Shown here one piece after another: positions 2,007-7,036 of a stretch of DNA of 64,000 nucleotides. The position numbers were made by a program, and so were the translations under genes. The stretch covers positions 1,933,001 through 1,997,000 of the forward strand of contig JABTUZ010000001.1 in assembly GCA_015075105.1 (NCBI GenBank). Reading direction: 5' to 3'. This DNA is from Leptospiraceae bacterium. GTDB taxonomy: Bacteria; Spirochaetota; Leptospiria; Leptospirales; Leptospiraceae. Below the pieces are notes generated by a model. The model did no database searches and was not told the DNA's origin. It saw only the letters and a list, made by a program, of their open reading frames with translations. Numbering within the stretch: the first letter of the stretch is position 1; each line of letters opens with the position of its first letter.

Positions 2007-2978
2007 CTATTTCGATATTTTTCGGGTTTTATCAAATTCTAATAAGAAATAGACAAATTCATAAAAAGAAAAAATCTGCCTTTTTGAAATATTTTTTTTA
2101 TAAATATACAGTCGAGTCTTAGGATACTCTTCTTTTGCAATTTTTACATTTTCCAAAACAAAATCAAAACTATCCCCTACCATGCTCTCTAAAATCCAAT
2201 TCTCTTTCTCGTGAAAACTCGGAAGGTCGATGTAAACCGATAACTTATTCGCAAGACCAATATTTGTAGGGCAAGAAGTTATATATCCGATTCCGAGAAA
2301 ATAATCAAAAAGATTCTTTGAATTCAGCAATCGAAAAAATATTTCATACTCTTTAAAGAATTTAAAAAACTTTCCATTCAATGAAAAAAATTCTAACCGA
2401 AAATGATCTTCGTCAAAAAATATGCAATTCAGATTGCTCTCAAATCTCACAAAATCTTCCTTATTTTTATCCGAGGCAGAAGACTGAAACAATTTCAAGA
2501 CTTTAGTTTTGATTTTCGTCTTAATTGAAGTTTCTTTTCCAAACTTTGAAACAGGATATACAAACTCTTTCAAATTCCTTGCGATTCTATATCTGAATGA
2601 AACTTTAGAATTTGGAAAATTTTGAAAAATCTGCGATTCGAGATCAATGAGTTTTGTAAATTTTTGGGAGGTGAATTTTTTTAGAGCTAAATGAAAATTT
2701 TCTATTTCGCTTTCTGGAATTTTTTTTTGAATATTTAAAAAAAATTTTTTTTTATCAGATAGAAACTCTTCCCATTTTTTATGTTGGAATTTCTTTTCGA
2801 TTTTTTTATAAGGAAGAATTGCATCTTGAAAAGATATAAAACAATTCCCACACCCGATTTTTCCAGATTTCAGAAATTCCTGAAAACTATATCCGCATCT
2901 GAGACAAAATTCTATCCCACTATATTGGTTGTAATTTTCCGGAAACAATTCGATTTCGCTTGAAAGCCAAAGATGCAA
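2007..2978 (-). CDS. McsA-McsB-like fusion: zinc-finger plus degenerate protein-arginine-kinase domain
   Basis: Residues 25-46 have a Cys-x2-Cys ... Cys-x2-Cys finger (CLRCG then GCGNCF) laid out like the McsA zinc finger. Residues 127-250 align with McsB and phosphagen kinases: a [11 protein letters not shown] segment (RxRxARNL), DEDHFR in place of the NEEDHxR motif, and [11 protein letters not shown], the kinase active-site Cys motif. After that, the Arg-rich and GEGSEAxGN segments of active McsB are not recognisable, and a Lys stands where an Arg is expected after the CPTN motif. Nucleotide handling is therefore doubtful and the protein may be a pseudokinase or adaptor. It lies just upstream of clpC, which supports a Clp-linked role. 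The start is uncertain: the frame opens with TTG at 2978, inside lolD, and another TTG occurs at 2948. The McsA/McsB assignment is by motif, not by search. Confidence 0.72.
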
Positions 2979-3594
2979 GCTCCATGTCGTGGGTTACAAG
3001 AATCATGGAAAATTGAAACTCTTTTTGAAGTCCTAAAACAAGTCCCATTAAATTTCTAGAATTTTCTCTGTCTAAATTTCCGGTCGGCTCGTCTGCCAAA
3101 ATCAATTGCTTTTTTGCAACCAGTGCCCTTGCCACTCCTACTCTTGCACTTTCTCCACCTGAAATTTCGGAGGGATAATTTTCTGTTCTTGAGATAAGCC
3201 CCACTCTCTCTAAAATTTCTAACGACTGAGACCTCGCCTTATTTTTTTTAACACCTGAAATGAGTAGTGGCATCATTACATTTTCCAAAGCAGTAAAATC
3301 AGGAAGCAGTAAATGGTGTTGAAAAATAAAAGAAATTTTTTCTCTCCTGAATCTTTCTTTTTCCCTCTCTTTCATATCAGACAGACTTTCCCCACAAACT
3401 ACAACTTTGCCGCTTTCAAAATTATCCATTGCACCAAGTATATTCAACAAAGTGGATTTACCGACACCTGAAGAGCCTTCTACAGAAACAATCTCATTCG
3501 CTAAAACAGTAAAATCTAAATTGGTTAAAATAGGAACGCCTTTCTCGCTTTTGAAATAAGACTTGTTCAGATTTTTAATTTCTACCAGAGCCAT
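2920..3594 (-). CDS. lolD: LolD-type ABC transporter ATP-binding protein
   Basis: ATPase of a LolCDE-type system, which extracts lipoproteins from the inner membrane for delivery to the outer membrane. The 224 residues contain Walker A ([11 protein letters not shown]), a Q-loop region (FIFQHH), the ABC signature ([15 protein letters not shown]), Walker B ([12 protein letters not shown]) and the H-loop (VTHD), all typical of the LolD/MacB branch. The gene starts one base after the end of the permease gene upstream, so the two are almost certainly co-transcribed and coupled. Its last 59 bases overlap the open frame of the McsA-McsB-like gene. Organisms of this type export very many lipoproteins, several of them encoded in this window. 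Confidence 0.9.
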
Positions 3595-3595
3595 G

Positions 3596-4945
3596 TTATT
3601 CGTTCCTTATCGTATCTATCGGGTTGAGTCTCGCTGCCCACCTTGCAGGGAAATACCCGGCTATTCCAGACAAAATAGTCGCAGCAGTTGTCACCATAAA
3701 TATAAATGAAATATCAATGTCCACAGGCAAGTGATCAAAGTAGTAAATGTCTTTTGGAACTAACTCAACAGTCCGCCAATCGCTTTGATAAATTGCAGAC
3801 CCGATTAAATTGATGATTTCGCTTAACGCATTGATTATTGACTCCAATTGGTTGGCTCCGAATATACCGATCATCCCCCCTACACTCGAAGCCAAAACTC
3901 CTATAATCATGGAGTTCAAAGTAAAAATCAAAAGTATGGAATTGGAAGATAAGCCTAAGGCTTTTAGTGTCCCGATAGATTTTTGTTTGGAGCGCACGAG
4001 CGAATATACAGTAGCCACCATTCCAAGTGCAGCAAGTACTATGAATAAAAATACGATAATAGAAATAATTGTTTTTTCCAATTTCAAAGCTGCCAGAAAA
4101 TTTTCCTGCTCTTCTGCAATTGTTCTGACTGTGAGAGATGTTCGCACTTTAATTTCAGGATCAAAATCAGGATCATTAAAAATCTCAAGTAGAGTGGACT
4201 TGACTCTTACTAAATCATCTAAAGACTTTACCTTGATAATAATTTGATTGACCGAGCCTTTCAGTTTAAAAAGTTTTTGTGCAACCGGAAGAGAAAGAAA
4301 AATAAATCTGGAGTCGTAGTTGTAATACCCTGTTCTAAAAAAACCAGAAACCCTAAAAGACTCAACATTCACCTCTACCCCTTTTCCGACAGTAAAAGTA
4401 CCGCCCGGCACTGCTACTGTAATAGTTTTTCCTAAAGAATAGCCATAGAGAGAAGCCATTTCCTTTCCTATGAGAATATAATTTTTAGAATTCATTAACC
4501 TCACCTCGTCTCTATTGTAATAAGTCAGATGAGGTAGGTTCGTAAAATTCAGATCAGACGAGCTTGTAGCCTCCATAGGAACTGCTCGAATCATTATCGG
4601 AATAAAAGATGTACTATTTTGTAAAAGACCGTGGCTTGTGATATTTCCTTGAATAGAAACAACCCTTTCTTTTAAATATTTATTTTTTAGTACAAGATCA
4701 ATAATTTTCTGGTAATTCTGAATTTCCCCAGATTCGTAATTATTCTCAATTGTAACATGAGAGCCTCCCGACCAGAGAGATTCTTTGACCTGTTTTTGGA
4801 ATCCGTTAAAGATAGATAATACAATCACCAATAAAGATACGCCTACTGCCATAACGATAAACGATAATCTTGACTTTAAAGACAGTAGCCCGAATATCTT
4901 GGCTCCTCTCAAATACCTCGATGTAATTAAAAAAACTATTCCCAT
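3596..4945 (-). CDS. lolC: LolC/LolE-family lipoprotein-releasing permease
   Basis: Inner-membrane permease of the FtsX/MacB superfamily, partner of LolD. The 449-residue protein has the expected plan. An N-terminal helix at about residues 25-50 is preceded by a SRYLRGAK-type start, followed by a large periplasmic domain and three C-terminal membrane segments near residues 285-310, 330-365 and 405-430. The ending [20 protein letters not shown] is a classic LolC/E signature. Only one permease gene is seen here, so the transporter may use a homodimer or a partner encoded elsewhere. It is divergent from the gene at 5029, with overlapping promoter-like elements between them. Confidence 0.9.
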
Positions 4946-5028: not shown

Positions 5029-5994
5029 ATGGGTGAAAGCGATAAAGTTTATTCTATCCGATTTATCGCAAAAGATGAAGAATCAGGGTTGAATTGCCTA
5101 TTTTGTGCTATTTTTGACCCTGTAATCGGCAAATTTGAGCAATTTGAAATACTTCTTGGAAGTAATGTATCTATTTCAAACCCAAGTCAAGCAACATTTA
5201 AAGACTTTTCTAATTCTATTCAGCTTTCCAAATACAAGGGAGATTTTTCTAAAAACTACACAAATAGCCTCTCAGAAAACTATAAAACTGGATTTTTATC
5301 AGAAAGTTTTATAGAAGAACTTAGACACTATTTAGAGACAAGCGATAACGAAAGACTAAATTACCTATTTCAACAACCACAGATCCAAGTTTTAGGTGCC
5401 ACTGCCAAAATAAATATGGAGCTATTCTATGAAAAAATAGAGCGAAATGATATAGAAAAAACCAACCAAGTGATTAATACTTCCGCCGATGAGTCGAACA
5501 CCGGGTCACAAGACATAATACCTCAAGGCTCGATGGTTGTGAATTTTAAATTTGCACTTTCTCCAGTATCTGGAGTCAAAGTCAGTGAGTTGAAAGATGG
5601 CAGCCGGATTATGGTAAAAATTGTACCGGGAGATACAAATTCAAACAATACAATAAACCTCCTAAAACTCAGAGACGACGGAGGAAATATCAAAGTTATT
5701 CCCGCCACAATAGTTTTCATAAATCACACTGCCAAAGGTACTGAAACTATTATTAAAATAACGGACTCTATATTCGGTAAATACACCGAAGAAGAAGCCT
5801 CTATCAAAGTAAAACTTGCAGGCAACGAAACTCTCGCATCCTCTGTTTCGACCCCTCAAACAGAAACCAGAAAAGCCCCTGCAATCCAACCAAGACAAAC
5901 TAAGGAAGATTCGGGTTCTCTACCTATAGGCGTGCTTATAATTATCGGAGCACTCGGTATAATTGGGGCATTCATTACCATTTTCCTATTGTAA
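5029..5994 (+). CDS. Unknown protein with a C-terminal membrane anchor
   Basis: I do not recognise this 321-residue protein. It has no signal peptide. The N-terminal 130 residues are mixed alpha/beta, residues 170-275 are predicted beta-rich (VVNFKFALSPVSGVKV onward), and a Thr/Pro/Gln-rich linker at 275-297 leads to one strongly hydrophobic segment at about 298-321 that ends the protein. This is a tail-anchored layout with a cytoplasmic body. The end overlaps the next reading frame's possible upstream start; the next gene's ATG at 6005 lies 11 bases after the stop, so the two probably form an operon driven from the promoter at 4972. Confidence 0.75.
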   Translation: MGESDKVYSIRFIAKDEESGLNCLFCAIFDPVIGKFEQFEILLGSNVSISNPSQATFKDFSNSIQLSKYKGDFSKNYTNSLSENYKTGFLSESFIEELRHYLETSDNERLNYLFQQPQIQVLGATAKINMELFYEKIERNDIEKTNQVINTSADESNTGSQDIIPQGSMVVNFKFALSPVSGVKVSELKDGSRIMVKIVPGDTNSNNTINLLKLRDDGGNIKVIPATIVFINHTAKGTETIIKITDSIFGKYTEEEASIKVKLAGNETLASSVSTPQTETRKAPAIQPRQTKEDSGSLPIGVLIIIGALGIIGAFITIFLL

Positions 5995-6004
5995 CTCAGA
6001 ATTT

Positions 6005-7036
6005 ATGAAAAAAATACTTTTTATTCTACTTCCTTTTGTTACCTTTCTTTTGACAATAGAGATGATGTTTCTGGATATACAACTCCAAAAGCCTTTTGAC
6101 CCATATAAATTTTCTTTGGAAGAAGGAAGCACTACTCTAAAAGAAGAAAAAAATACACCAATCCCAATGCAAATCGGGAAAGGAATATTTCAAAAAATCT
6201 CTTTTTTTTCTGAGTTGCATAGAGCACTAAAAGACACAAATTCTCCCTCCGACGGAAAGGTAGAAAAAACTATTTCTAAAATAGAAAGAGTAATACTTTC
6301 ATTAAAGATTGCTTTTTTTATAAACCTATTCCTAGCCGCTCTTTCTATATGTGCATTCATCTCTATGAATTTAGAAGCCTACTTTTCTCCATTTCTGAAT
6401 CGTTTCCAAGCAATTTCTTCTATTTTCATATTCATGCCATATATGTCTGAAAGTTCCAGACTAATAGAAACAAAACCTATTCTTGGAATACTGGGGGTTC
6501 TATTTTTCCTCAGCTCCTCTGTGTATGCGATTTGGATATTTCGTAAATTTGGCAAATTGAAAAAACAAGACAATTTCACATACCAAGCTCTCTACCACGC
6601 ATCAAAGTCAGAAGAAGAAAATTTAACAAAACAAGAAAATGACCCAATTAGCTTTATTACTTTTGCTTTTCATTTTTCTGTTATCATATTTTCGGGAATT
6701 CTAATCGGAAATTTTTTATACATACCACTTTTTTCTCTTCAAAAAAACTTTTCAGCTCAATTTGGAATTCTTTTGATTGTTCTATTTTTCGGGCTATCTC
6801 TATTCTATATAAAAAACTATTATACAATAGGAAAGGAAATCGGTTACTCAAAATTTCAAAATATTCTTGCCAGCATTGCTTTTTTACAATTTCGTTTTAT
6901 AAAAAATATCCTATTTACAGTTCTATCTCTCACAGGCGTGATTTTTTTTATTACACTTTTGTTTTCTCTACTCGCCTTCAATAGTTTTTTTTTAAAAAGT
7001 GCAAACTTCCTGCTTCAAACTCAAGTTAGCCTGTAA
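6005..7036 (+). CDS. Unknown multi-spanning membrane protein
   Basis: Unrecognised protein of 343 residues. It starts with a hydrophobic helix (ILFILLPFVTFLL), followed by about 80 polar residues and then paired membrane segments near residues 100-125, 135-150 and 160-180, a polar loop, and three or four more segments in the C-terminal third. I chose the ATG at 6005 because it puts the first hydrophobic segment at the N-terminus; an in-frame ATG at 5963 would overlap the previous gene. Its last 11 bases overlap the convergent small gene at 7026. The pairing with the tail-anchored protein upstream suggests a shared membrane role, but no function can be assigned. Confidence 0.72.
   Translation: MKKILFILLPFVTFLLTIEMMFLDIQLQKPFDPYKFSLEEGSTTLKEEKNTPIPMQIGKGIFQKISFFSELHRALKDTNSPSDGKVEKTISKIERVILSLKIAFFINLFLAALSICAFISMNLEAYFSPFLNRFQAISSIFIFMPYMSESSRLIETKPILGILGVLFFLSSSVYAIWIFRKFGKLKKQDNFTYQALYHASKSEEENLTKQENDPISFITFAFHFSVIIFSGILIGNFLYIPLFSLQKNFSAQFGILLIVLFFGLSLFYIKNYYTIGKEIGYSKFQNILASIAFLQFRFIKNILFTVLSLTGVIFFITLLFSLLAFNSFFLKSANFLLQTQVSL

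Follow-up and report, generated by a model that had tools for sequence, protein, structure and literature searches.

Locus and Gene Order

The window, which is the whole 64,000-nucleotide stretch of Leptospiraceae DNA analyzed here, carries lolC, lolD, a fused McsA-finger/McsB-core gene, and clpC on its minus strand in this order, so that the fusion lies upstream of clpC. The lolC-type permease is encoded at positions 3596-4945 and the lolD-type ABC ATPase at 2920-3594, its 3′ end overlapping the fusion frame. The fusion gene occupies 2007-2978. The gene clpC, which is complete in the genome, is represented in the window by its first 610 codons (2-1831). The sites reported by a scan for promoters and terminators were no more frequent than in shuffled sequences.

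The fusion protein consists of 323 residues if translation starts at TTG 2978, or 313 residues if it starts at TTG 2948; ATG is absent nearby. The start is uncertain because the first ~20 residues overlap lolD. Since lolD constrains this DNA, residues 1-20 are unfit as evidence, and N-terminal similarity within the overlap may reflect only lolD. A McsA-type zinc finger, CxxC...CxxC, was recognized at residues 25-46 (C25-x2-C28...C43-x2-C46; 2841-2906, minus strand) through hhalign to McsA and the conservation of its Cys residues. The SxRxRxARN segment, read here as F-R129-Y-R131-I-A-R-N and containing the ATP-phosphate arginines R129 and R131, spans residues 127-135 (2574-2600, minus strand). 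It is followed by DEDHFR (D189-E-D-H-F-R194; residues 189-194; 2397-2414, minus strand) with the first catalytic Glu E190 and the phosphate Arg R194, by CPTN within C236PTNIG (residues 236-239; 2262-2273, minus strand) with the reactive Cys, and by the degenerate lid equivalent VKIAKEE (residues 278-284; 2127-2147, minus strand), the last located in two of three alignment modes.

An uncharacterized gene pair (5029-5994 and 5963-7036) is divergent from the lolC/lolD side. One protein of the pair has a C-terminal membrane segment, and the other is a multi-span membrane protein. The pair is conserved: in each of three genomes of Leptospiraceae (the window, L091 5886-7897, and L092 7136-9177), it lies next to lolC or lolD in divergent orientation.

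Homology of the Two Halves

The window protein matches the Pfam ATP-gua_Ptrans model (PF00217) with 37.8 bits and the e-value 1.7e-9, the curated cut-off being 22.4. It also matches the NCBIfam models for protein arginine kinase (e-value 1.5e-11) and McsA (e-value 1.4e-7), both far below their equivalog cut-offs (44 bits against 385; 39.8 against 500). A sequence search of PDB with the window protein returned McsA and McsB chains, and also arginine kinases. Profiles extended these similarities. The profile of the four members from the family of the window aligned to McsB residues 23-189 with the e-value 2e-16 and to the McsA finger with the e-value 6e-11 (hhalign), only the finger being aligned in the latter. 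The order-wide fusion profile aligned to McsB residues 19-249 (e-value 2e-29) and to McsA residues 5-129 (e-value 2e-16). An AF2 model of the window protein, built from an alignment of four sequences (the window and three relatives), had a pLDDT of 44 and was too poor to use.

The S. aureus McsB is composed of a phosphotransferase domain (1-251), including a lid (199-209), and a dimerisation domain (252-336) (PMC12467219). The order-wide match ends at McsB residue 249, which is the boundary between the two domains. The window protein terminates after the phosphotransferase domain, and the C-terminal dimerisation domain with its pArg receptor site is missing, as are the UVR motif and the N-terminal CxxC pairs of McsA. 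The frame thus has an McsA-type finger in front of an McsB phosphotransferase core, and the homology is statistically real. The first-pass annotation, made from the letters alone, had recognized a four-Cys finger and McsB-like segments in one 323-residue frame upstream of clpC and had taken the gene for an McsA-McsB fusion; the motifs and the Pfam, NCBIfam, and hhalign matches bear out both points, and the same fusion recurs across the order.

Distribution in the Order and the Phylum

In the genome of the window, no PF00217 protein other than the fusion and no separate mcsA or mcsB was found; the sole other match to the McsA model covers the C-terminal part of the model, not the finger. The sample of the order comprised 30 genomes, eight from the same family (f1) and 22 from the sister family (f2). 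The fusion is present in 22 of them, four from f1 (the genome of the window, G001, G002, and G004) and 18 from f2. The three f1 relatives are metagenome-assembled genomes named Leptospiraceae at NCBI; a scan of genome contigs with the four-row alignment matched just three such Leptospiraceae genomes. Presence was not assigned for G024, a genome 78% complete.

The fusion was not detected in the f1 genus g4 (G003, G005, G006, and G007), where lolD is followed by other genes, nor in the f2 genus g12 (G016, G019, and G027). Two genera of the order thus appear to have lost the fusion gene, yet they keep clpC. In G016 and G019 (L151 and L152), clpC directly follows lolD and the fusion is missing, as in a natural deletion; the clpC of G016 (L151 1583-2065 and 2005-3999) is in two overlapping frames, indicating a frameshift or an assembly error. 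The order lolC-lolD-fusion-clpC is seen in most genomes. Four fusion-carrying genomes (G001, G004, G010, and G011) have clpC elsewhere, and the fusion adjoins lolD in all four f1 members that carry it.

Outside the order, none of the 18 other members of the class sampled had a PF00217 match. Elsewhere in the phylum, other families have mcsA and mcsB as separate genes ahead of clpC. On plasmids, the search returned nothing beyond neighboring genes for McsA and McsB in Monoglobus. The open-licence literature searched contained no description of an McsA-McsB fusion, or of McsB in Leptospira or Treponema.

Origin of the Fusion

The tree covers 53 phosphotransferase cores; a branch (87/88) has every fusion on the same side, and the fusions of each family form a clade (f1, 95/92; f2, 96/86). 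This topology favors a single fusion event but, with branches as long as those of the tree, is no proof of it. A distant spirochaete (G050, L089) has the gene order lolC-lolD-mcsA-mcsB-clpC, which suggests that the cluster is older than the fusion.

Active-Site Residues and Constraint

Eight catalytic or phosphate-binding residues were scored with McsB numbering (R29, R31, E122, R125, C167, R176, R207, and E212); their roles are established for phosphagen kinases. The f2 table includes 17 of the 18 fusions, G026 being left out because its gene is cut by a contig end. All eight residues are kept in 13 of the 17, and the remaining four differ at C167, R176, or E212. Among 32 separate spirochaete McsBs, all eight residues are present in two (G058 and G080), six are altered solely at R176, R207, or E212, and 24 lack C167 and other residues of the first half, in a table whose rows are not independent and which is limited to proteins detected by the Pfam model. 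Eroded active sites are seen in the separate McsBs beside clpC in most sampled spirochaete families (L044-L073 and L085-L088). The repeated erosion of McsB with the clpC linkage retained may count as a separate finding.

The f1 fusions keep R29, R31, E122, R125, and C167, which are R129, R131, E190, R194, and C236 in the window. Of the five ATP-phosphate arginines, f1 thus retains three, together with the first catalytic Glu and the reactive Cys, while the remainder of the protein diverges; both N-terminal arginines are invariant across the fusions. The position of R176 is occupied by Lys in three of the four f1 fusions, and in the window, the positions of R176 and R207 are probably both Lys (K245 and K279). 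The lid segment of the window, VKIAKEE, contains no glycine, and the Gly-rich RGxxGE lid is not found. In two of three MAFFT modes, K279 falls on R207 and E284 near E212, so K279 may stand for R207 and E284 for E212, an assignment that depends on the aligner. At the lid positions, G002 has Arg and Glu with the correct spacing, and in G001 and G004 the segment is shortened at the expected site. A loss of the lid residues throughout f1 was considered and rejected, since R and E remain at this spacing in G002, and the window has K and E in their place. On the question whether it is a pseudokinase, the window protein has lost the lid glycines and probably has Lys in place of two arginines, and the second Glu is possibly kept, the lid alignment being ambiguous.

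None of the 19 aligned fusions deviates at the four finger Cys residues, and CPTN is invariant in f1, with CPxN or a variant in most f2 fusions. Invariance in the kinase part of the f1 alignment is found at 12 of 13 motif positions versus 9 of 142 other gap-free positions (Fisher p 1e-11), this alignment having four rows and being partly guided by the motifs themselves. The zinc-binding Cys residues and the half-site are invariant in f1 at an overall identity of 28-30%. A dN/dS of 0.08 in the single unsaturated f2 pair indicates purifying selection.

The conservation of the finger and CPTN in relatives was one of the checks set by the first-pass annotation, and both are conserved as given above. 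Its statement that the GEGSEAxGN region is unrecognizable is correct for the motif, while by position K279...E284 may match R207...E212. Its description of the protein as small and degenerate suits f1: no fusion has the dimerisation domain, but only f1 is without the Gly-rich lid.

Proposed Function and Alternative Explanations

The window gene is best explained as a divergent Leptospiraceae form of the order-wide McsA-McsB fusion, a "mini-McsAB", impaired in f1 and acting as a regulator or adaptor of ClpC, to which a probability of about 0.55 is given. The ancestral cluster would have been lolC-lolD-mcsA-mcsB-clpC, in which a single event linked the zinc finger of McsA to the phosphotransferase domain of McsB, the fusion shedding the UVR tail of McsA and the dimerisation domain of McsB. 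In McsAB of S. aureus, the finger of McsA touches loop 147-153 of McsB, which precedes CPTN, and orients Cys157 (PMC12467219). Because the fusion keeps both elements, the activating contact probably takes place in cis, within the single chain. The f2 fusions, judged by their residues, are likely to be catalytically competent and would be working single-chain protein-arginine kinases. Dimerisation is reported to be necessary for full McsB activity (PMC8370763), and an active fusion would therefore have to act as a monomer or pair otherwise.

In f1, phosphoryl transfer would be lost or strongly reduced, because the lid has no glycines left and, in the window, Lys probably replaces two arginines that bind phosphate. 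The retained half-site (the finger, R129/R131, E190, R194, and C236) may bind nucleotide or the side chain of an arginine, and the f1 protein would regulate ClpC or serve as its substrate adaptor. A pseudokinase adaptor for ClpC in f1 is a plausible hypothesis. The ClpC-adaptor role of B. subtilis McsB depends on kinase activity (PMC5506225), and a non-catalytic adaptor would thus be a new mode. The link of the fusion to a ClpC-adaptor role comes from the gene neighborhood, and the location of clpC elsewhere in four fusion carriers, together with clpC in two genera where no fusion was detected, counts against it. Against the impaired state, Arg or Lys and Glu fill the lid positions in G002, and the same can be argued for the window under the ambiguous lid alignment.

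An alternative is that the window protein is a diverged but working protein-arginine kinase, in which Lys replaces two arginines and E284 is the second catalytic Glu. R129, R131, E190, R194, and C236 are retained, K245, K279, and E284 occupy the equivalent positions in two of three alignments, and G002 has R, R, and E there. However, the window lid has no glycines, the segment is shortened at the lid site in two of the four f1 members (G001 and G004), and the dimerisation domain reported to be needed for full McsB activity (PMC8370763) is missing, which makes such a kinase unlikely. That the f1 gene is instead a decaying relic with no function would agree with the very long branches and with the apparent loss of the gene in two genera, but it is very improbable for a frame of 323 intact codons that stays next to lolD in all four f1 carriers and whose zinc-binding Cys residues and half-site are invariant at so low an identity.

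The linkage to lolD persists where clpC is elsewhere (G001, G004, G010, and G011), as expected if the protein had a ClpC-independent role, for example as a LolCD-tied or redox-sensing zinc protein, with the clpC neighborhood as ancestral baggage. The overlap with lolD can keep the pair together by translational coupling alone, though, both halves descend from ClpC partners, and the cluster order is also found in a distant spirochaete; such a role is thus considered quite unlikely. Beyond the impaired ClpC regulator, a wider proposal is put forward tentatively, namely that spirochaetes have a single-chain ClpC arginine-kinase without the dimerisation domain, that its f1 form turned into a non-phosphorylating reader or adaptor, and that the erosion of McsB was repeated in the phylum, its genes remaining next to clpC.

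Two further components of the pathway were surveyed. The GxEH segments of ClpC carry the glutamates of the pArg pocket. The ClpC of the window has both, and they are uninformative on the fusion because both are also present in the ClpC of G019, whose genome has no fusion. Among the best-scoring low-molecular-weight phosphatase P-loops of the order, with none recovered for G022, no YwlE-like CTGNTC was found. All recovered P-loops are CxGNICRS, so a canonical pArg eraser is not evident among these best copies, a point against the favored explanation. Used as an indicator of active pArg signalling, a YwlE-type arginine phosphatase does not distinguish f1 from f2.

Comparison with Known McsA and McsB Systems

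McsA and McsB normally act as partners that label damaged proteins with phospho-arginine for destruction by ClpC. Most knowledge of this arginine phosphorylation comes from Firmicutes, where the system is dimer-based and made of two proteins. A single chain that naturally does without the dimerisation domain would reveal the essential part of McsAB, and the fusion is a compact protein for probing cis activation by the zinc finger. With intact f2 fusions, eroded f1 fusions, and the widespread erosion of spirochaete McsBs, it becomes testable whether a ClpC-related function of McsB can be separated from catalysis.

The window protein shares SxRxRxARN, DEDHxR, and CPTN with McsB of G. stearothermophilus, B. 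subtilis, and S. aureus, and its gene is likewise upstream of clpC, as in neighborhoods of the mcsA-mcsB-clpC type. It differs from them in the absence of the dimerisation domain and lid glycines, in the probable Lys at R176 and R207, in the fusion to the McsA finger, and in scores far below the family cut-offs. From McsA, the activator of McsB, it has the equivalent CxxC...CxxC finger spacing but not the UVR tail. The N-terminal CxxC...CxxC like that of McsA is kept in most f2 fusions (L035-L039 and L074-L084), whereas it is lost in f1.

The f2 fusions (e.g., L038 3967-4989 and L037 6456-7448) are the same fusion in the same slot after lolD, but are longer and have a near-complete active-site set including an RGxxGE-type lid. 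The separate spirochaete McsA and McsB resemble the window protein in being encoded upstream of clpC, most with eroded active sites, while they are unfused and their McsB is full-length with the C-terminal domain. Chlamydia has an McsAB pair in another Gram-negative group, encoded by separate genes away from clpC (PMC10128030).
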